DNA of 64,000 bases, taken from Terrabacter sp. Root181 (GTDB lineage Bacteria > Actinomycetota > Actinomycetes > Actinomycetales > Dermatophilaceae). Numbering within the stretch: the first letter of the stretch is position 1; the number at the start of each line of letters is the position of its first letter. Shown one piece after another: positions 6,360 through 56,550 of the stretch. Under the pieces are notes generated by a model. It was not told the origin of the DNA. It ran no database searches and was given only the letters and a program-made list of their open reading frames with translations. Location of the stretch: positions 124,133 to 188,132 of the forward strand of contig NZ_LMHU01000007.1 of NCBI RefSeq assembly GCF_001428505.1, read 5' to 3'. Position numbers and translations under genes: made by a program.

Positions 6360-7430
6360 TCAGGCGGCGGTGGGCGCCGAGCGCAGCAGGCCCGTGAGGA
6401 CGTCGATCGCGACGTCGGTGCCCGCGTCGTCGACATCGAGGTGCCAGACGAGGCGCACGGCACCCGGCCCCACGGCATACGTCCTCACGCCGGCGGCGAG
6501 GGCTGCCTCGACGAAGGCGGCGGACGTCCAGCCCACCGCGGCCACGTCGACGATGACGATGTTGGTCTCGACCGTGGCGAGGTCGACGGCGCCGGGAGCC
6601 GACTCGGCCATCGCCTCGGCCGCGCGTCGCGCTCGGGCATGGTCGTCGGCCAGGCGGTCGACGTTGTGGTCGAGGGCGAAAAGCCCTGCGGCAGCGAGGA
6701 TCCCGGCCTGCCTCATCCCGCCACCGAAGCGCTTGCGCCAGATGCGCGACTCGGCCATGGCGTCGGCAGAGCCCACGAGCACGCTGCCGACGGGCGCCCC
6801 GAGGCCCTTGCTCAGGCAGATCGAGACGGTGTCGAACTCGCGACCGTAGTCCCCGATCGGCACGCCGGAGGCGACGTGGGCGTTGAAGAGCCGCGCCCCG
6901 TCGAGGTGCATGGCGACGCCTCGCTCGCGCGTCACCTCGCGGGCCCGCCGGATCTCGTCGAGCGACTGCACGGTGCCGCCGCCGAAGTTGTGGGTGTTCT
7001 CGACGATCACGAGGGACGTGCAGACCTGGTAGGGCCCGACACCGGTGATCATGAGCGACGCCGCGTCGCCGGCCCGGAACCGGCCACGCTCGGACACCCA
7101 GGTGCGCGACGAGATGCCCGAGAGCACGGCGGCCGCCCCGAGCTCGGCCCGCACGACGTGGGCGAGGGAGTCGCCGATGAGCTCCTCCCCCGGCCTGACG
7201 TGCAGCCGCACGCCGAGCTGGTTGGCCATCGAGCCCGAGGGCGTGAAGAGCGCGGCCTCGTGCCCGAGCATCCCGGCGACGCGCTCCTCGAGGGCGCGCA
7301 GCGTCGGGTCCTCACCGAAGACGTCGTCGCCGACCTCCGCGCGCGCCATGGCATCGCGCATGGCCTCGGTCGGGCGGGTCAGGGTGTCGCTGAGCAGGTC
7401 CGCCCGGTAGGGGCTCGTGGCCGCCACCAC
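6360..7430 (-). CDS. Low-specificity threonine aldolase (beta-eliminating lyase family)
   Basis: PLP-dependent aldolase expected to split L-threonine or L-allo-threonine into glycine and acetaldehyde in the cytosol. 356 residues, fold type I. The sequence shows a DLLSDTLTRPT start, HLDGAR at 175-180, the PLP lysine in CLSKGLGAPVGS (Lys208) and a conserved ENTHN segment. The GTG start is immediately after the TGA of the upstream DAHP synthase gene, so the two are probably co-transcribed and translationally coupled. Confidence 0.9.
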   Translation of the reverse strand: MVAATSPYRADLLSDTLTRPTEAMRDAMARAEVGDDVFGEDPTLRALEERVAGMLGHEAALFTPSGSMANQLGVRLHVRPGEELIGDSLAHVVRAELGAAAVLSGISSRTWVSERGRFRAGDAASLMITGVGPYQVCTSLVIVENTHNFGGGTVQSLDEIRRAREVTRERGVAMHLDGARLFNAHVASGVPIGDYGREFDTVSICLSKGLGAPVGSVLVGSADAMAESRIWRKRFGGGMRQAGILAAAGLFALDHNVDRLADDHARARRAAEAMAESAPGAVDLATVETNIVIVDVAAVGWTSAAFVEAALAAGVRTYAVGPGAVRLVWHLDVDDAGTDVAIDVLTGLLRSAPTAA

Positions 7431-49182: not shown

Positions 49183-50801
49183 TCACCTTCGAGCACGTGT
49201 CGGTGCAGTACGCCGATGCCCCGGCTCACAGCCTCCACGACGTCACGCTCGAGATCCCAGAAGGTGAGCTCGTCCTCGTCGTCGGCCCCACGGGGAGCGG
49301 CAAGTCCACGTTGCTGCGCACCATCAACGGGCTCGTGCCGCACTTCAGCGGAGGCACCCTGACGGGTCGCGTCACCGTCGACGGCCTCGACACCGCCGAG
49401 CACCGGCCGCGCGACCTCGCGACGGTCGTCGGCCTCGTCGAGCAGAACCCGTCGTCGACGTTCGTCACCGACGTCGTCGAGGACGAGGTCGCCTACGGCA
49501 TGGAGACGATGGGACTGGACTCGACGACGATCCGCCGCCGCGTCGAGGAGACCCTCGACCTCTTCGGGCTCACGCCGCTGCGCGCCCGGGCGCTGCGCAC
49601 GCTCTCCGGCGGTCAGCAGCAGCGCGTCGCGATCGCCGCGCTCTTCGCCGCCGGCCCTCGGGTCCTCGTGCTCGACGAGCCGACGTCGGCCCTGGATCCC
49701 GTTGCGGCAGAAGAGGTTCTGGCGTCGCTCCATCGCATCGTGCACGACCTCGGCGTCACGGTCGTGCTCGCCGAGCACCGGCTCGAGCGCGTCGTGCACC
49801 ACGCCGACCGCGTCGTCCTCGTCGACGAGGGCCGCGTGTCCGAGCTGCTCGACCCTGCCGAGGCGATGCTCCGCTCCCAGATCTATCCGCCCGTCGTCGG
49901 TCTCTCCCGCCTCGTCGGGTGGTCGCCCACGCCGCTGTCGATCCGCGACGCCCGCCGCAAGGCCGCCGCCCTGCGCGAGGCCCTCGGCACCAGCGCGCCG
50001 CGACCGGTCACCGACCTCAGGGTGATCGGGCCCGCCGACGCCGTCGTCGCCACCGGTGTCCGCGTCGTGCGCGGTGGCCGGGTCGTCCTCGACGGCGTCG
50101 ACCTCGCCGTGGCCCGGGGCTCCGTGACGACGCTCATGGGACGCAACGGGGCCGGCAAGTCCACGCTCCTCGGCGCCATCGCGGCCCAGCACCGGCTGGC
50201 CGGGGGACGGGTGCGCGTCGGGGCCGAGGGCATCGACCCGCACACCCGGTCCGCGCGGGAGCGAGTGCGCACCGTCGGGCTGGTGCCCCAGCAGCCCGAG
50301 CTGCTCCTCTACGCCGACTCCGTCGCCGCCGAGTGCGCGGCGGCCGACCACGACTTCGGGGCTGCACCCGGCACGGCCCGTGGCCTGCTCGACCGCATCT
50401 CCGGCGGCATCGACCCCGCCGTGCACCCGCGCGACCTGTCCGAGGGCCAGCGCCTCGAGCTCGCCCTGGCCGTCATCCTCTCCGGGTCACCCGAGGTGCT
50501 CCTGCTCGACGAGCCCACGCGCGGTCTCGACTACGGCGCCAAGAAGCGGCTCGGCGAGATGCTGACGAGCCTCGCCGCCCAGGGCACGACGGTCCTGCTC
50601 GCCACCCACGACGTCGAGCTCGCGGCCGAGGTCGCCGACCGCGTCGTCATCCTCGCCGACGGTGAGGTCGTCACGGACGGCGCGGCCCGTGAGGTCCTCG
50701 CCTCGTCGCCGGCGTTCGCCCCGCAGGTGACGAAGGTGCTCCTCCCCCAGACCTGGCTCACGGTCGCCGAGGTCGCGGGCGCCCTCGCGAGGATCGCATG
50801 A
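49179..50801 (+). CDS. ECF transporter ATPase with two ABC domains (EcfA-EcfA' fusion)
   Basis: About 540 residues. Domain 1 (2-270): Walker A GPTGSGKST, signature LSGGQQQR, Walker B VLVLDEPTS, followed by the H-loop VLAEHR. Domain 2 (about 285-530): Walker A GRNGAGKST, a diverged signature LSEGQRLE, Walker B LLLDEPT and LATHD. Both ATP sites look intact. The GTG at 49179 has GGGAGG seven bases upstream and overlaps the T-component stop. Confidence 0.93.
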   Translation: MITFEHVSVQYADAPAHSLHDVTLEIPEGELVLVVGPTGSGKSTLLRTINGLVPHFSGGTLTGRVTVDGLDTAEHRPRDLATVVGLVEQNPSSTFVTDVVEDEVAYGMETMGLDSTTIRRRVEETLDLFGLTPLRARALRTLSGGQQQRVAIAALFAAGPRVLVLDEPTSALDPVAAEEVLASLHRIVHDLGVTVVLAEHRLERVVHHADRVVLVDEGRVSELLDPAEAMLRSQIYPPVVGLSRLVGWSPTPLSIRDARRKAAALREALGTSAPRPVTDLRVIGPADAVVATGVRVVRGGRVVLDGVDLAVARGSVTTLMGRNGAGKSTLLGAIAAQHRLAGGRVRVGAEGIDPHTRSARERVRTVGLVPQQPELLLYADSVAAECAAADHDFGAAPGTARGLLDRISGGIDPAVHPRDLSEGQRLELALAVILSGSPEVLLLDEPTRGLDYGAKKRLGEMLTSLAAQGTTVLLATHDVELAAEVADRVVILADGEVVTDGAAREVLASSPAFAPQVTKVLLPQTWLTVAEVAGALARIA

Positions 50802-51655
50802 CCGGCCGCCGCGTCATCCCCCTGCGCTGGCCGGCGGTCGTGGCCGTCGCGGTGGTGGGTGTCGTCGGCCTGGTCGCCTTCACCTGGCCCTTCTTCGTCA
50901 GCGGGGACTTCGCGCGCGACCACGGCAACGACGCGCCCTGGCTCTTCGCGGTCCTCCTCGGGCTGCTCGCGGTCGTGTGCCTCGCCGAGGTGACGGCCGG
51001 GCGCCTCGACGCCAAGACGATCGCAGTCCTGGGTGTCGCCGCCGCGGCCGGCGGTGGTCTGCGGCTGCTCAGCGCCGGCACCGCCGGGCTCGAGCCGATG
51101 TTCTTCGTCGTCATCGTCGCCGGTCGCGTGCTCGGCCCCGGCGTCGGCTTCGTGTCCGGCTCCCTCGCCGTCACGACCGGCGCCCTGCTGACCGGCGGGG
51201 TCGGCCCGTGGCTGCCCTTCCAGATGATCTGCGCCGGAGGCATCGGCCTCGGGGCCGGTCTGCTGCCCGCACGTGCGGGAGGGCGCGCCGAGCGGTGGGT
51301 GCTCGCGGCATACGCCCTCGTGACGGGGCTCGCCTTCGGCCTCTTCATGAACCTCTGGTTCTGGCCCTTCCTCGGGACCACCGCGCCCGGTGGGATGGGC
51401 TTCGTCCCCGGCGCACCCCTCTCGGAGAACCTCGCCCACTACGCCCTCTTCTACCTCGCGACGTCCCTCGCCTGGGACCTGCCGCGCGGGGTGCTCAACG
51501 CCCTCCTCGTCGTGCTGGCCGGTCCGGCGCTGCTGCGGGTCTTCCGGCGGGGAGCGCGGCGGGCCGCCTTCGGGGTGCCGGTCGTCTTCGAGCCGGCGGC
51601 CGCGACCGGGTCGGGCCACGTGGCGCCGCTCCAGGACGCCGGGGGTGCCCGGTGA
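50798..51655 (+). CDS. ECF transporter substrate-binding (S) component
   Basis: 285 residues with six or seven helices, in the family of actinobacterial ECF S proteins paired with SCO2322-type operons. Its location behind a B12 riboswitch and before cobU/cobS points to cobalamin, a cobinamide precursor or cobalt as substrate. The sequence alone does not decide which. It starts inside the ATPase stop (ATGA) and its stop overlaps cobU. Confidence 0.88.
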   Translation: MTGRRVIPLRWPAVVAVAVVGVVGLVAFTWPFFVSGDFARDHGNDAPWLFAVLLGLLAVVCLAEVTAGRLDAKTIAVLGVAAAAGGGLRLLSAGTAGLEPMFFVVIVAGRVLGPGVGFVSGSLAVTTGALLTGGVGPWLPFQMICAGGIGLGAGLLPARAGGRAERWVLAAYALVTGLAFGLFMNLWFWPFLGTTAPGGMGFVPGAPLSENLAHYALFYLATSLAWDLPRGVLNALLVVLAGPALLRVFRRGARRAAFGVPVVFEPAAATGSGHVAPLQDAGGAR

Positions 51656-52248
51656 CCCATCCGGGCGCGGCCTCGACCACCACCCTCGTCACCGGTCCGG
51701 TGCGCAGTGGCAAGAGCCGCCACGCCGAGGACCTGCTGGAGGGGCACGAGGACGTCACCTACGTGGCGACCGGGCGCACGGCCGACCCCACCGACCCCGA
51801 GTGGAGCCGACGCGTCGCGCACCACCGAGCCCGCCGACCCGGGACGTGGCGGACCCTCGAGACGACGGACGTGGCCGGTGCCATCCGCGCCGCCACGGGC
51901 CCGGTGCTCGTCGACTGCCTCGGCACGTGGCTCACGGCGCTCGTCGACGACGCCGGGTGGGACGACCTCGTCGCAGCGGCCGACGCGGTGCGCCGTGAGG
52001 CTGATCGCCTGGTGGAGTCGCTTTGCGCCGCAAGGGTGCCCGTCGTCGTCGTCACCAACGAGGTCGGCTGGTCCCTGGTGGCGACGACGGCTTCCGGACG
52101 CCTGTTCCAGGACGAGCTGGGTCGGCTCAACGCGCTCGTCGGCGGGGTGGCGGCCCAGGTGCACCTCGTCGTCGCGGGACGCGTCGTCGACCTCAGCGGG
52201 GCGCCCGTCGTGCCCCGCGAGCCGAGGCCGAGGACGCTCGATGCGTGA
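51652..52248 (+). CDS. cobU: Adenosylcobinamide kinase/adenosylcobinamide-phosphate guanylyltransferase
   Basis: About 198 residues. P-loop TGPVRSGKSRHAE at 11-23, a YVATGR strand, and a DCLGTW motif, as in CobU/CobP. It phosphorylates and GMP-activates adenosylcobinamide in nucleotide-loop assembly. The GTG at 51652 overlaps the S-component stop, and the gene overlaps cobS by eight bases. Confidence 0.93.
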   Translation: MTHPGAASTTTLVTGPVRSGKSRHAEDLLEGHEDVTYVATGRTADPTDPEWSRRVAHHRARRPGTWRTLETTDVAGAIRAATGPVLVDCLGTWLTALVDDAGWDDLVAAADAVRREADRLVESLCAARVPVVVVTNEVGWSLVATTASGRLFQDELGRLNALVGGVAAQVHLVVAGRVVDLSGAPVVPREPRPRTLDA

Positions 52249-53050
52249 CGCCTGGCGGCTCACGTTCGGCACCTTCACCGCGATCCCCGTCGGGCCACCG
52301 GCTCACGTCGACCGCACCGTCCTCGGCCAGGCCATGCTCCTCGCGCCGGTGACGACGGCACCTGCCCTCGTCGGGTGGGTCGCCCTCGGCACTGCGTCGA
52401 CCATGGGTTGGGCACCTGCGGCCGTGGTGGCCGTGCTCGGGCTCATCGTCACGGCGCTGCTCTCGCGGGCCCTCCACCTCGACGGGCTCGCCGACCTCGC
52501 CGACGGGCTCACCTCCGGCCACGACCCGGCGCGGTCGCTGGAGGTCATGCGACGGGGCGACACCGGTCCAGCGGGAGCGGCGGCGGTCGTCCTCGTGCTC
52601 CTGCTCGACGCCGCCTGCCTCTCGGTCCTCCTCCACGGTGAATGGGGCACGGCCCTGGCCGTCGTGGCCCTCGTGGCCAGCCGGCTCGCGTGCGCGGTGT
52701 GCGCGCGGGACGGCATACCTCCCGCGCGTTCCGAGGGACTCGGTCAGGGAGTCGCCGGCACCGTCCGCCGGGGGCGCCTGGTCGGCCTCGTCGCCGTGGT
52801 CAGCGTGATCGCCGCGATCGGGGTCGCCGGCCTCGCGGCTGCCGTGGCCGGGGTCTCGTGGTGGGCTGCCGGGTTCGGAGCCGTTGCGGTCGTCCTGGTC
52901 AGCGTGGTCACAGCCGTCGTGACGCGACGCCACGCGGTGCGTCGTCTGGGCGGCGTCACCGGCGACGTCATCGGTGCCGCGATCGAGATCTCCCTCGCCG
53001 CCGGACTCGTCACCGCCTCGCTCGTCGTCACCGCCCTCCCCCACCCCTGA
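52241..53050 (+). CDS. cobS: Adenosylcobinamide-GDP ribazoletransferase
   Basis: About 269 residues, polytopic membrane enzyme that joins adenosylcobinamide-GDP to alpha-ribazole as the last assembly step. Conserved HLDGLADLADGL with the metal-binding DxxxD, and RRGDTGPAG near residue 105-113. The ATG at 52241 lies within cobU. Last gene of the riboswitch operon; followed directly by the phased inverted array. Confidence 0.94.
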   Translation: MRDAWRLTFGTFTAIPVGPPAHVDRTVLGQAMLLAPVTTAPALVGWVALGTASTMGWAPAAVVAVLGLIVTALLSRALHLDGLADLADGLTSGHDPARSLEVMRRGDTGPAGAAAVVLVLLLDAACLSVLLHGEWGTALAVVALVASRLACAVCARDGIPPARSEGLGQGVAGTVRRGRLVGLVAVVSVIAAIGVAGLAAAVAGVSWWAAGFGAVAVVLVSVVTAVVTRRHAVRRLGGVTGDVIGAAIEISLAAGLVTASLVVTALPHP

Positions 53051-53052
53051 CC

Positions 53053-53225
53053 CGTCGAGAGGCCACCTCTGGCCGCATCCCTCACGTCGAAAGGCCACTA
53101 CTGGCCGCATCCCTCACTTCGAAAGGCCACTACTGACCGAGCGAGAGCTGGCCTCTCGACGACGACAGGGCGGCCCCTCGCGGCCTCTCGACGGTTGCCG
53201 GGCGGCCACTTGTGGCCTCTCGACG
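53053..53225. repeat. Six-module 32-bp-phased inverted repeat array
   Basis: Three forward modules start at 53053, 53085 and 53117 (CGTCGARAGGCCAC...TGGCCGC), and three reverse modules end at 53161, 53193 and 53225. Every pair of positions sums to 106278, so the array is exactly symmetric. Within each module GGCCAC and GTGGCC-type words form a second mini-inverted repeat. It sits between the convergent ends of cobS and gatD. A lone copy of the same word pair forms the hairpin at 60785-60819. Likely a REP-like element or bidirectional terminator. Confidence 0.85.
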
Positions 53226-53242: not shown

Positions 53243-54028
53243 TCAGCGGCGGAGGCGGGCTGCGACGGGACCCGGCAGGCGGCTGCGCCACTCGGCCTTC
53301 GGCGCGGTGCGCCGGGCCTCGGCGATGCGCTCGCGCCGGGCGCGCTCGACGGCCGGCGACTCGAGGGCGGGCCACGGCTCGGACCGCTGCGTGGCGCGTG
53401 CCAGCACGAGGTCGGCCAGCTCGGGGTTGAGGGCGAGCAGCGGGCCGTGCAGCCGCGTGCCGATGACCGAGCCGGCGATCACGCCCTCCGACGTCTCTCC
53501 GACGGCCTCGTCGGTGCGGTTGCCCGCGCCGACCTCGAGGGTGAAGAGCGCGCGGGCGTCGTCCTCGCGGACCGTCCGCAGGTCGTGGGCCTCCCACCCG
53601 ATGAGGGCGGGCAGGTCGAGGGAGGCGTCCGGCCGGGTGACGACCGTGCCGGTGACCTCGGGGGCCGAGTGGACGGTGACGGGTGCGAGACCGAGTCCCT
53701 GGTGACGGGCACCGGACGGGTCGACCCACGATCGCGCGATCGCGTCGAGACCGGCGTCGACCGCGAGGACCACGGCGCCGTCTGCGACCCGCGCCGCGAG
53801 GTCCGTGGAGGTCAGCGCCTCGACGAGTGCGGCCACGCCGCCGCGTCCCGTGCCGCCGACGAGGTAGACGTCGGCGCCGACGAAGGAGTCGGCCCGGTCG
53901 ACGGTGACGGTCTCGACGGTGAGGTCACGCGCGGCGCCACGACGCACGAGGGCACTCGCGTTGGCCTCGTCGGCCGCGGCGACGGTGGCGAGCGGGAAGA
54001 GCGTGGCCACGGTGAGGGTCCGGCTCAA
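53243..54028 (-). CDS. gatD: GatD-like protein (lipid II amidotransferase glutaminase subunit) with the nucleophile lost
   Basis: 261 residues, class I glutamine amidotransferase fold of the CobB/CobQ-like GatD family. The C-terminal GTRLHGPLLALNPELADLV block keeps His194, and GNRTDEA is present. In GatD the loop should read like VLAICAAIQ or VCGGYQ; here it is VLAVDAGLDA, so Cys becomes Asp91 and the following Gln becomes Asp95. As written it should not hydrolyse glutamine. It starts with TTG overlapping the murT stop, with GAGGAGG upstream. Confidence 0.85.
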   Translation of the reverse strand: MSRTLTVATLFPLATVAAADEANASALVRRGAARDLTVETVTVDRADSFVGADVYLVGGTGRGGVAALVEALTSTDLAARVADGAVVLAVDAGLDAIARSWVDPSGARHQGLGLAPVTVHSAPEVTGTVVTRPDASLDLPALIGWEAHDLRTVREDDARALFTLEVGAGNRTDEAVGETSEGVIAGSVIGTRLHGPLLALNPELADLVLARATQRSEPWPALESPAVERARRERIAEARRTAPKAEWRSRLPGPVAARLRR

Positions 54029-55272
54029 TGGGTGCCTCCTCGGAACTGCTTCGAGATGCGTCGGAAGGCCGGGTAGTTGCAGGCCACGATCACCTCACCC
54101 GGAGCGTGGGCCCGGACGGCGGACTCGATGTCGGGTGCCTCGACGACGTCGACGCCTGCCGCGTCGAGGATCGCCACGGCGTCCGCCGTGCGTCCGCCGG
54201 TGACGGCCACCCGCTGACCGGCGAGACGCTGGAACGGCGCCTCCCACATCGTGGCGGTGTCCTTGGGCCCGAACGGGTCGACGGCCACGACGAGCGGACG
54301 CTCGGTGGAGACGGCGACGTCGATGGCCTCGGCCCAGCCGGCCGGGTTCTTGAGCATGAGCAGGCGAGCGGCGTGGTCGCCCAACCGGTAGGGCGCATAG
54401 CGGCCGTCGACGTCGGCGACGGCGCTCACCCGCTCGGCGGCCTCGGCGACGTCGACACCGAGGGCGTCCGCGGCGGCGAGCGCGAAGGCACCCCCCACGG
54501 GCCCCGTGCGTCCCGGAACGGTCACCTCGATGCGGGTGCGCCGACCGTCGTGCTCGACGGCCCAGCCGTCCCCGTCCGGCACGACCTTCCAGTCGGGCGC
54601 GGGACGCGACCGCCCGCAGCCGGGGCAGCTCCACGAGTCGTCGGTGAAGTCCTGGACCGAACCGCACGCCGGGCAGATGAGGGCATCGCCGCGCCAGTAG
54701 AGGCCACCGCTGACGCCGACGCGACGCGGAGCGGTCTCGAAGGCCCAGCTGACGAGCGGGTCGTCGACGTTGACGATGGCCACGCAGTCGTCCGGGAGCG
54801 CGGCGGCCGTGCGGCGCCAGTGCTCGAGCGTGCTCTTGAGGGACACGCCGCGGGTGTACTCGCGCGAGCTGTTGAGCACGACGACCGCCTGGGGCCGGGT
54901 GCCTCGCGCGACCTGCTCGAGGTAGACCTCGTCGACCTCGAGGGCCGCGAGCTCGGAGGTGCGGTCGGCCGACAGGGCGGTGACGATGCCGTCGGTCATG
55001 TTGGCGCCGGTCGTGTTGCTCACGACCGTGCCGCCGGGCGTGATGGCGGCCGCCACGAGCGCCGTCACCGTGCTCTTGCCGTTGGTCCCGGTGACGAGGA
55101 CGCTGCGCCGGTCGCCGGCCACGGCGCGGAGCACCTGGGGGTCGACGCGGAGGGCGAGGCGGCCTCCGATCATGGAGCCCGAGCCCTTGCCGAGGGCCTG
55201 CGAGAGCCGTCCGGCCGACCGTCCCGTGGCGAGCGCCAGGCGGGCGCGGAGCGGATCGCGTGCGTCAGACAA
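54025..55272 (-). CDS. murT: MurT-like ligase (lipid II isoglutaminyl synthase subunit), active-site residues diverged
   Basis: 415 residues, Mur-ligase fold. P-loop TGTNGKST at 61-68, NTTGANM, the four-Cys zinc ribbon inserted at Cys200, 203, 216 and 219, and LMLKNPAGWAEA. In the MurT C-terminal region the catalytic-triad aspartate lies in a SWxWD-F motif; here the segment is TATMWEAPFQ, so Asp becomes Glu344, and the preceding NxR-type motif is VDPFGPKD. Starts with TTG at 55272; divergent from the P1 peptidase. Confidence 0.87.
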   Translation of the reverse strand: MSDARDPLRARLALATGRSAGRLSQALGKGSGSMIGGRLALRVDPQVLRAVAGDRRSVLVTGTNGKSTVTALVAAAITPGGTVVSNTTGANMTDGIVTALSADRTSELAALEVDEVYLEQVARGTRPQAVVVLNSSREYTRGVSLKSTLEHWRRTAAALPDDCVAIVNVDDPLVSWAFETAPRRVGVSGGLYWRGDALICPACGSVQDFTDDSWSCPGCGRSRPAPDWKVVPDGDGWAVEHDGRRTRIEVTVPGRTGPVGGAFALAAADALGVDVAEAAERVSAVADVDGRYAPYRLGDHAARLLMLKNPAGWAEAIDVAVSTERPLVVAVDPFGPKDTATMWEAPFQRLAGQRVAVTGGRTADAVAILDAAGVDVVEAPDIESAVRAHAPGEVIVACNYPAFRRISKQFRGGTH

Positions 55273-55413
55273 AAGCGGTTACCCTTCTCGACATCGTGGG
55301 TCGCGCCGCTCGGCAGCGAGGGGCGACCGCTCGGTGACATGCCAGATCGACAAGCCAGATCGTAGCCGCAGCACCGGTCCTCCCGGTCCGCGGGTGGACG
55401 AGGAGGAGACCGC

Positions 55414-56550
55414 GTGCGAGCCACCGATGTCGGGATCGAGATCGGGACGGGCCGCTCGGGTCCACTGAACGCCATCACCGACGTCGAGGGCGTCCGCGTC
55501 GGCTACAGCACGATCGTGCACGGCGAGGGCGAGATGACCGTCGGGCAGGGCCCGGTGCGCACCGGTGTCACGGTCGTGCTCCCCCACGGCGGCCGCGCCT
55601 CCACCGAGCCCGTCTTCGCGGGCTACCACCGCCTCAACGGTTTCGGTGAGCTGACCGGTCTCGAGTGGCTGCACGAGTCGGGCATGCTCTCGAGCCCGAT
55701 CGCCCTGACGAACACCGACAGCGTCGGCGTCGTGCGCGACTCGCTCATCGCACGCGAGACGCGCCTGCCGGGGCGGATGCCGATCATGCTGCCCGTCGTC
55801 GGCGAGACGTGGGACGGCATCCTCAACGACATCAGCGGGCAGCACGTGACCCGCGAGCACGTACACGCCGCCTTCGACGACGCCCGCAGCGGCGTCATCG
55901 CCGAGGGCAACGTCGGCGGCGGCACCGGCACCCAGTGCTACGGCTTCAAGGGCGGCACCGGCACCGCCTCCCGGGTCGTCGACCTCGGCGACCGGCACTT
56001 CACCGTGGGCGTCCTCGTGCAGGCCAACCACGGCGACCGCAAGCACTTCGAGGTCAACGGCGTGCCGGTCGGCCACGTGCTGACCAAGAAGGTCGTGCCC
56101 TTCCCCCGCATGTCGGAGATCACCCGGGTCCCGCCGCCAGGCACGGGCTCGGTGCTGGCCGTCGTCGCGACCGACGCGCCCCTGCTGCCCCACCAGCTCA
56201 ACCGTCTCGCCCAGCGCGCCGGACTCGGCATCGCCAAGTTCGGCGCCCGTGGCGACAACTACTCCGGCGACCTCATGATCGCCTTCTCGACGGCTGCTCA
56301 CGGGATGCCCGACCAGGGCCCCGGAGCGCGCACCGAGATCGGGATGCAGGTCGAGATGCTCGCGCTCGAGTACTTCGACGCGATGTTCGGTGCCGTCATC
56401 GAGGCCACGGCGGAGGCGATCCTCAACGCGATGCTCCAGGCCGACACGATGGAGGGGCGCGACGGACTGACGATCCATGCGCTCGACGGTGAGCGTCTCG
56501 CCGGCATCCTCGACCGCCACGGCCGGCGCCACTTCTCCCTGCGCGACTAG
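55414..56550 (+). CDS. P1-family peptidase (DmpA/S58 aminopeptidase)
   Basis: 378 residues. Self-processing N-terminal nucleophile fold related to DmpA and beta-aminopeptidases. The segment GNVGGGTGTQCYGFKGGTGT followed by ASR lies near residues 170-192 and contains the autocleavage region. The N-terminal NAITDVEGVRVGYSTI is the other family hallmark. The GTG at 55414 has GAGGAGG with seven-base spacing. Confidence 0.9.
   Translation: MRATDVGIEIGTGRSGPLNAITDVEGVRVGYSTIVHGEGEMTVGQGPVRTGVTVVLPHGGRASTEPVFAGYHRLNGFGELTGLEWLHESGMLSSPIALTNTDSVGVVRDSLIARETRLPGRMPIMLPVVGETWDGILNDISGQHVTREHVHAAFDDARSGVIAEGNVGGGTGTQCYGFKGGTGTASRVVDLGDRHFTVGVLVQANHGDRKHFEVNGVPVGHVLTKKVVPFPRMSEITRVPPPGTGSVLAVVATDAPLLPHQLNRLAQRAGLGIAKFGARGDNYSGDLMIAFSTAAHGMPDQGPGARTEIGMQVEMLALEYFDAMFGAVIEATAEAILNAMLQADTMEGRDGLTIHALDGERLAGILDRHGRRHFSLRD

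Follow-up and report, generated by a model that had tools for sequence, protein, structure and literature searches.

Terrabacter sp. Root181 carries a MurT/GatD-like gene pair in which the glutaminase cysteine of GatD and the triad aspartate of MurT are replaced by aspartate and glutamate respectively, and such altered pairs are a real subfamily, found in Terrabacter, Humibacillus, Intrasporangium oryzae and a genus of another order. Loss of the glutamine-dependent ammonia supply in a complex of the window type is supported by homology. Since two orders conserve the pair next to the same peptidase gene although the cysteine is gone, what it joins is probably not ammonia from glutamine, and with a probability of roughly 0.45 we read it as a repurposed amide ligase that depends on ATP, is not supplied by glutamine any more and works with an S58-family peptidase. 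A conserved glutaminase-free branch of a well-studied wall enzyme would show an amidotransferase turning into another ligase. Beyond the initial annotation of this DNA, which had described the pair itself, the analysis adds a descent away from the MurT/GatD type of the host's own family, the occurrence in a second order and the co-inherited S58 peptidase.

The altered gene pair

The window, the whole stretch of 64,000 nucleotides that was analysed, belongs to a genome of 4.94 Mb in 12 contigs and holds the following features of the pair.

53243..54028, minus strand: GatD-like subunit of the GATase_3 family, 261 amino acids (Pfam, NCBIfam and PDB searches; residue count)
53447..53449, minus strand: codon of GatD His194, LHGP motif kept (phmmer alignment, per-genome residue count)
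53756..53758, minus strand: codon GAC of GatD Asp91, in the place of the glutaminase Cys (phmmer alignment, per-genome residue count)
54025..55272, minus strand: MurT-like subunit of 415 amino acids with P-loop, Cys4 insertion and MurT C-terminal domain (Pfam, NCBIfam and PDB searches)
54232..54279, minus strand: DPFGPKDTATMWEAPF in MurT, where others have, for example, NARGADGRDPSWIWDVDF (two-residue gap; alignment)
54241..54243, minus strand: codon GAG of MurT Glu344, in the place of the triad Asp (phmmer alignment, per-genome residue count)
54616..54675, minus strand: Cys4 insertion of MurT (C200, C203, C216, C219), kept (alignment)
54841..54873, minus strand: NSSREYTRGVS in MurT, where others have, for example, NLTRDQLDRGSE (one-residue gap; alignment)
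55072..55089, minus strand: ATP-binding GTNGKS of MurT, kept (alignment, per-genome residue count)

Both frames are intact and overlap by four bases, with GGAGG preceding the start of gatD, the second gene of the pair; promoter and terminator scans found nothing. The window GatD reaches 48 bits with Pfam GATase_3 (cut-off 27), and the window MurT 29 bits with Mur_ligase_M (cut-off 24) and 22 bits with MurT_C, which is under the cut-off of 25, the latter score being 25.5 in the genome-wide search. The equivalog cut-offs of NCBIfam are missed by MurT (96 and 66 of 800 bits) as well as by GatD (56 of 450 and 37 of 400 bits), these cut-offs being narrow, as the MurT one is passed by 1 of 14 control genomes. 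The closest solved structures are the S. pneumoniae and S. aureus MurT and GatD chains and one further pair of entries. A search for a second copy, advised in the initial annotation, found no other gatD or murT in the genome, MurT_C and the window MurT each giving a single match at E 0.001. At E 1, six matches to GATase_3 turned up, including the window GatD; our guess is that the other five are two cobalamin synthases on contig C5 and other enzymes of the GATase fold.

With the lipid II isoglutaminyl synthase MurT/GatD of S. aureus, S. pneumoniae and mycobacteria the pair shares overlapping genes, domain families, the P-loop, GAN, the acidic Mg residues, KNP, the His of the GatD HGP motif and the Cys4 insertion of many members. 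It differs in both catalytic replacements, in the oxyanion and neighbouring motifs of GatD, in the replaced RDQLDR and NARGADGRD-type motifs of MurT and in having an S58 gene as neighbour.

By phmmer alignment, D91 of the window GatD falls on the Cys and H194 on the His of S. aureus GatD, as had been proposed from the letters of this DNA. In the pairs from 118 loci that were compared (117 MurT, 115 GatD; top search matches and thus not a random sample, tallied by genome), Asp occupies position 91 in all 11 altered genomes and Cys in 84 of the 85 others, with one gap or unreadable residue, and the His in LHGP is kept in 11/11. The two-residue change originally described for GatD (Asp91, Asp95) is correct in that both residues are present, but it is wider than that, since the oxyanion glycines GGG have become GGT or GGD, the CAGLQ block DAGLD or DAGMA and the GYENH block GWEAH, GWEAN, GWESN or GWRSD. 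As the window GatD contains no Cys among its 261 residues and the GatDs of the eight related loci likewise have none, a neighbouring Cys cannot serve in these proteins, while both GatDs of the second order (genomes G605 and G570) hold Cys at other positions. Neither of the two findings that the initial annotation had named as speaking against its reading was thus made: no close orthologue seen has Cys at position 91, and another nearby Cys does not exist in the window protein. The exchanges C94S and C94G of S. aureus GatD abolish glutamine-dependent activity (PMC6113224; PMC3266927), and by this homology the earlier suggestion that ammonia derived from glutamine would be unusable for the complex is strengthened.

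In MurT, the window E344 falls on the Asp of the WD motif of S. pneumoniae MurT, the position being E in 11/11 altered genomes and D in 82 of the 87 others, with five gaps. As S. pneumoniae MurT D355A keeps 28% activity (PMC6085368), the change from Asp to Glu alone would not be decisive; D349N in S. aureus MurT causes a severe reduction in activity (PMC6113224; PMC3266927). The alignments confirm Glu344 and the change of the nearby NxR-type motif, both noticed beforehand, but this account of MurT was incomplete, the RDQLDR loop being altered too. It is replaced by R-EYTRG, and the DNAAD/NARGADGRD-type motif by DPFGP--KD, each with a small gap; the DNAAD-like motif is said to meet the lysine of the stem peptide (PMC6113224). 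NxxREYTRGVS and DPxGPxDTxTMWExPF are shared between the window type and G605/G570, proteins which are 61% (MurT) and 47% (GatD) identical, and Asp91 too is unchanged in G605 and G570 despite this divergence. The window MurT keeps GTNGK, GAN, EVDE, DGR and KNP. Lys66, Asn91, Asp114 and Asn309 are constant in 11/11 altered-type genomes and Glu115, Gly290 and Lys308 in 10/11, the exception being I. oryzae. GTNGK, GAN, ExD and KNP, among others, have been tied to ATP, Mg and the acceptor, partly by docking (PMC6085368).

Descent, selection and the S58 neighbour

Among 186 genomes of the family, 132 give MurT matches at E 0.001, a figure that includes weak partial matches which are probably other Mur ligases. 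The altered pair is present in nine of the 186, namely in six of the nine genomes of the genus, two of a second genus and one of a third; the other strong matches are mostly 27–35% identical and represent the family's own type, of which the family search found no second MurT in the nine genomes with the pair. A scan of the genome collection with two peptide patterns, which would miss the group of G605 and G570, gave eight loci (three in Terrabacter, one each in Terracoccus, Intrasporangiaceae and I. oryzae, and two in Humibacillus xanthopallidus) and two further weak loci that were taken as unrelated. It was a class-wide GatD search of 394 genomes that led to G605 and G570, the second group outside the order; of four genomes from the order of G605, two have the pair, one has a partial match and one is without. 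A second round with a broadened model (E 1e-30) in 393 genomes, largely overlapping the first draw, returned no further members, the next score being 143 bits versus 408. When MurT was searched for across the order and across the phylum, in 396 genomes each time, nothing outside the family came near the altered-type scores; the returned loci were examined residue by residue. Carriage on plasmids was set aside, the best of 12 matching plasmid records being 39% identical.

Both the MurT and the GatD tree recover the altered type as a single clade, supported at 100/100 and set on a long stem. In the MurT tree the common actinobacterial and the altered types stand together, set apart by a 100/100 branch from the type of the host's own family; the corresponding branch of the GatD tree, for which the program gave a long-branch warning, has 82/99, is not starred and leaves two common-type rows on the side of the host family. 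In the best trees the altered clade lies within the common type, and the starred branches also allow a sister position, so that the altered pair groups with the common actinobacterial MurT/GatD, beside or within it, and not with the family's own type. The latter is also not supported as parent by its scores, the listed matches reaching 54–76 bits with the altered MurT model versus 130–300 for the common type, and both trees place the pair with the common type. Gene transfer is likely.

Retention rather than simple decay, argued initially from the intact frames, is backed by the low dN/dS within the genus (0.05–0.10 for MurT, 0.12–0.21 for GatD). The values versus Humibacillus (0.19 for MurT, 0.33–0.35 for GatD) and versus I. 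oryzae (0.33 and 0.55) are higher, likely through saturation of dS in GC-rich DNA. The pair was not found in three of nine genomes of the genus, one of which is 74% complete. In genome G588 (locus L156, about 6375–7003; G588:C17:50374–51002), short adjoining matches to a MurT and to the GatD model lie in order, one with a stop, apparently the remnant that a deletion has left of the altered pair. Absence in three of nine genus members together with this remnant makes the pair dispensable, which counts against the preferred reading, as do the replacement of Lys308, Gly290 and Glu115 in I. oryzae MurT and the lack of an adjoining S58 gene in that species. The I. oryzae gene (L044, 5565–6818) is an open frame with DNP for KNP, DER for DGR and VDD for VDE, and this copy is perhaps losing function.

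Divergently from MurT, a peptidase gene is located.

55273..55413, no strand: gap of 141 bases between the divergent MurT and S58 genes (gene coordinates)
55414..56550, plus strand: co-inherited S58 (DmpA/P1-type) peptidase-family protein of 378 amino acids with DNYSGD, an SGD nucleophile-type motif (PF03576 and PDB matches)

The protein scores 365 bits with PF03576 (cut-off 23.9) and possesses the nucleophile Ser motif; the closest solved relatives, a D-aminopeptidase (5tzb) and the S58 enzymes DmpA and BapA (1b65, 3n2w), are matched nearly over full length with E of 9e-92 to 3e-82, SGD motif included. Two comparisons give dN/dS of 0.03–0.04 for the gene. A match of at least 91% identity is present in 8 of the 186 family genomes, which are exactly eight of the nine with the altered pair, the next-best match being 58% identical. 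In the three genus members without the pair the match is absent or weak (E 8e-7, 3e-4), and the best that G588, the genome with the remnant, offers is 48% identical. The gene adjoins the pair in the window and in seven of the eight related loci; the exception is I. oryzae, which has the pair with no S58 gene beside it and a homologue of 58% on a different contig. In the other order, the S58 gene of G570 (78% identical) is on the same strand directly upstream of MurT, while the copy of G605 (80%) is incomplete on its contig, with MurT beginning at the edge of a different one, adjacency of the two genes being plausible.

Reactions open to the pair

As the ATP and acceptor side of MurT is conserved, other parts were rebuilt and then stayed constant, and a GatD without Cys was kept, an amide ligase independent of glutamine is favoured. 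Judged from the sequences, MurT would still form an acyl-phosphate, most likely on the D-Glu α-carboxyl of a lipid-linked wall precursor or on a related carboxylate, with GatD retained as a non-catalytic partner that would complete the complex. Asp91 and His194, together with the new MurT loops, might hold an amine nucleophile not derived from glutamine, and the S58 enzyme might cleave or supply the same kind of amide, whereby the three proteins would form one small pathway. It is the motifs that point to this acceptor, which the motif replacing DNAAD may also touch. MurC, MurD, MurE and MurF, to which the window MurT shows weak matches over the middle domain, activate a carboxylate at the expense of ATP prior to attack by an amine and thus resemble the proposed ligase; they are not known to have a GatD partner. 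S. aureus MurT continues to depend on GatD even when the latter has lost its Cys (PMC3266927). Archaeal MurT-like proteins are likewise relatives of MurT untied to a working glutaminase (PMC11915815), but they lack a GatD homologue, whereas here a Cys-less GatD is kept under selection. No title or visible beginning of an abstract in a search of the MurT/GatD literature dealt with a Cys-less GatD.

A more specific version, in which the ligase couples an amino acid or other amine such as glycine to the D-Glu α-carboxyl, or extends or amidates that glycine, with the dead glutaminase as amine-binding partner and the S58 enzyme editing the product, is unlikely. The walls of Terrabacter are probably similar to that of I. 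calvum. A MurT that adds glycine is therefore attractive, as the I. calvum wall has a triglycine bridge and glycine on the α-carboxyl of D-Glu (PMC3035309, the available wall data of which cover I. calvum only); loss of amidation in I. calvum fits with an occupied carboxyl. The genome taken as I. calvum (G041), however, yielded nothing at E 0.001 when searched twice for MurT, so that something else must add the I. calvum glycine, which weakens the glycine version and in particular a glycine ligase as sole explanation. We know of no enzyme that puts glycine on D-Glu in actinobacterial walls. The pair is a testable candidate for this addition, with the peptidase gene as a second handle. The accessible text of PMC6113628 contains no statement on glycine in the Terrabacter wall, and that of PMC7766514 does not mention peptidoglycan. 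Several family genomes, G041 included, are without a MurT match at E 0.001; murTgatD has been called universal in Actinobacteria (PMC6085368).

A reaction outside the cell wall, with the pair and the S58 enzyme making and breaking an amide in a small-molecule pathway, is somewhat doubtful. The patchy presence within the genus, the tight link to a peptidase-family gene and not to known wall genes, and the replacement of the DNAAD-like motif with its reported stem-peptide contact (PMC6113224) would suit it, but this MurT still has the GAN motif, N-terminal region and Cys4 insertion of an ordinary one. The complex might instead still produce D-isoglutamine from free ammonia, which we regard as quite unlikely: ATP and acceptor motifs are kept and at pH 8.5 the S. 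aureus complex of MurT and GatD C94G can amidate lipid II from NH3/NH4Cl, GatD being needed, but no such activity was seen at pH 7.5 (PMC3266927), and the rebuilt, constant MurT loops and the fixed Asp91 would be left unexplained. That both proteins are pseudoenzymes kept for binding, as non-catalytic leftover or regulator, agrees with the absence of the glutaminase nucleophile in every member, the further MurT residues lost in I. oryzae and the G588 remnant; since I. oryzae alone departs from constancy at the checked residues of the ATP and Mg motifs and dN/dS is low, it is distinctly improbable. A sequencing error or recent decay is regarded as refuted, its probability being negligible, since the same Asp and Glu recur in the genomes of two orders, changes are mostly at third codon positions and the frames are open.

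The DNA beyond GatD

Beyond GatD, ECF-transporter-like and CobS-like genes (50798–53050; named by eye) are present in all eight related loci, and no functional link of these genes to the pair was seen. Between the convergent CobS-like and GatD genes, at 53053–53225, six CGTCGARAGGCCA-like elements are arranged at an exact spacing of 32 bases, three on each strand. Such exact three-plus-three arrays are absent from six of the related loci and present in the other two (L039 and L045). In the window, the element has eight matches with up to one mismatch versus 0.57 expected.
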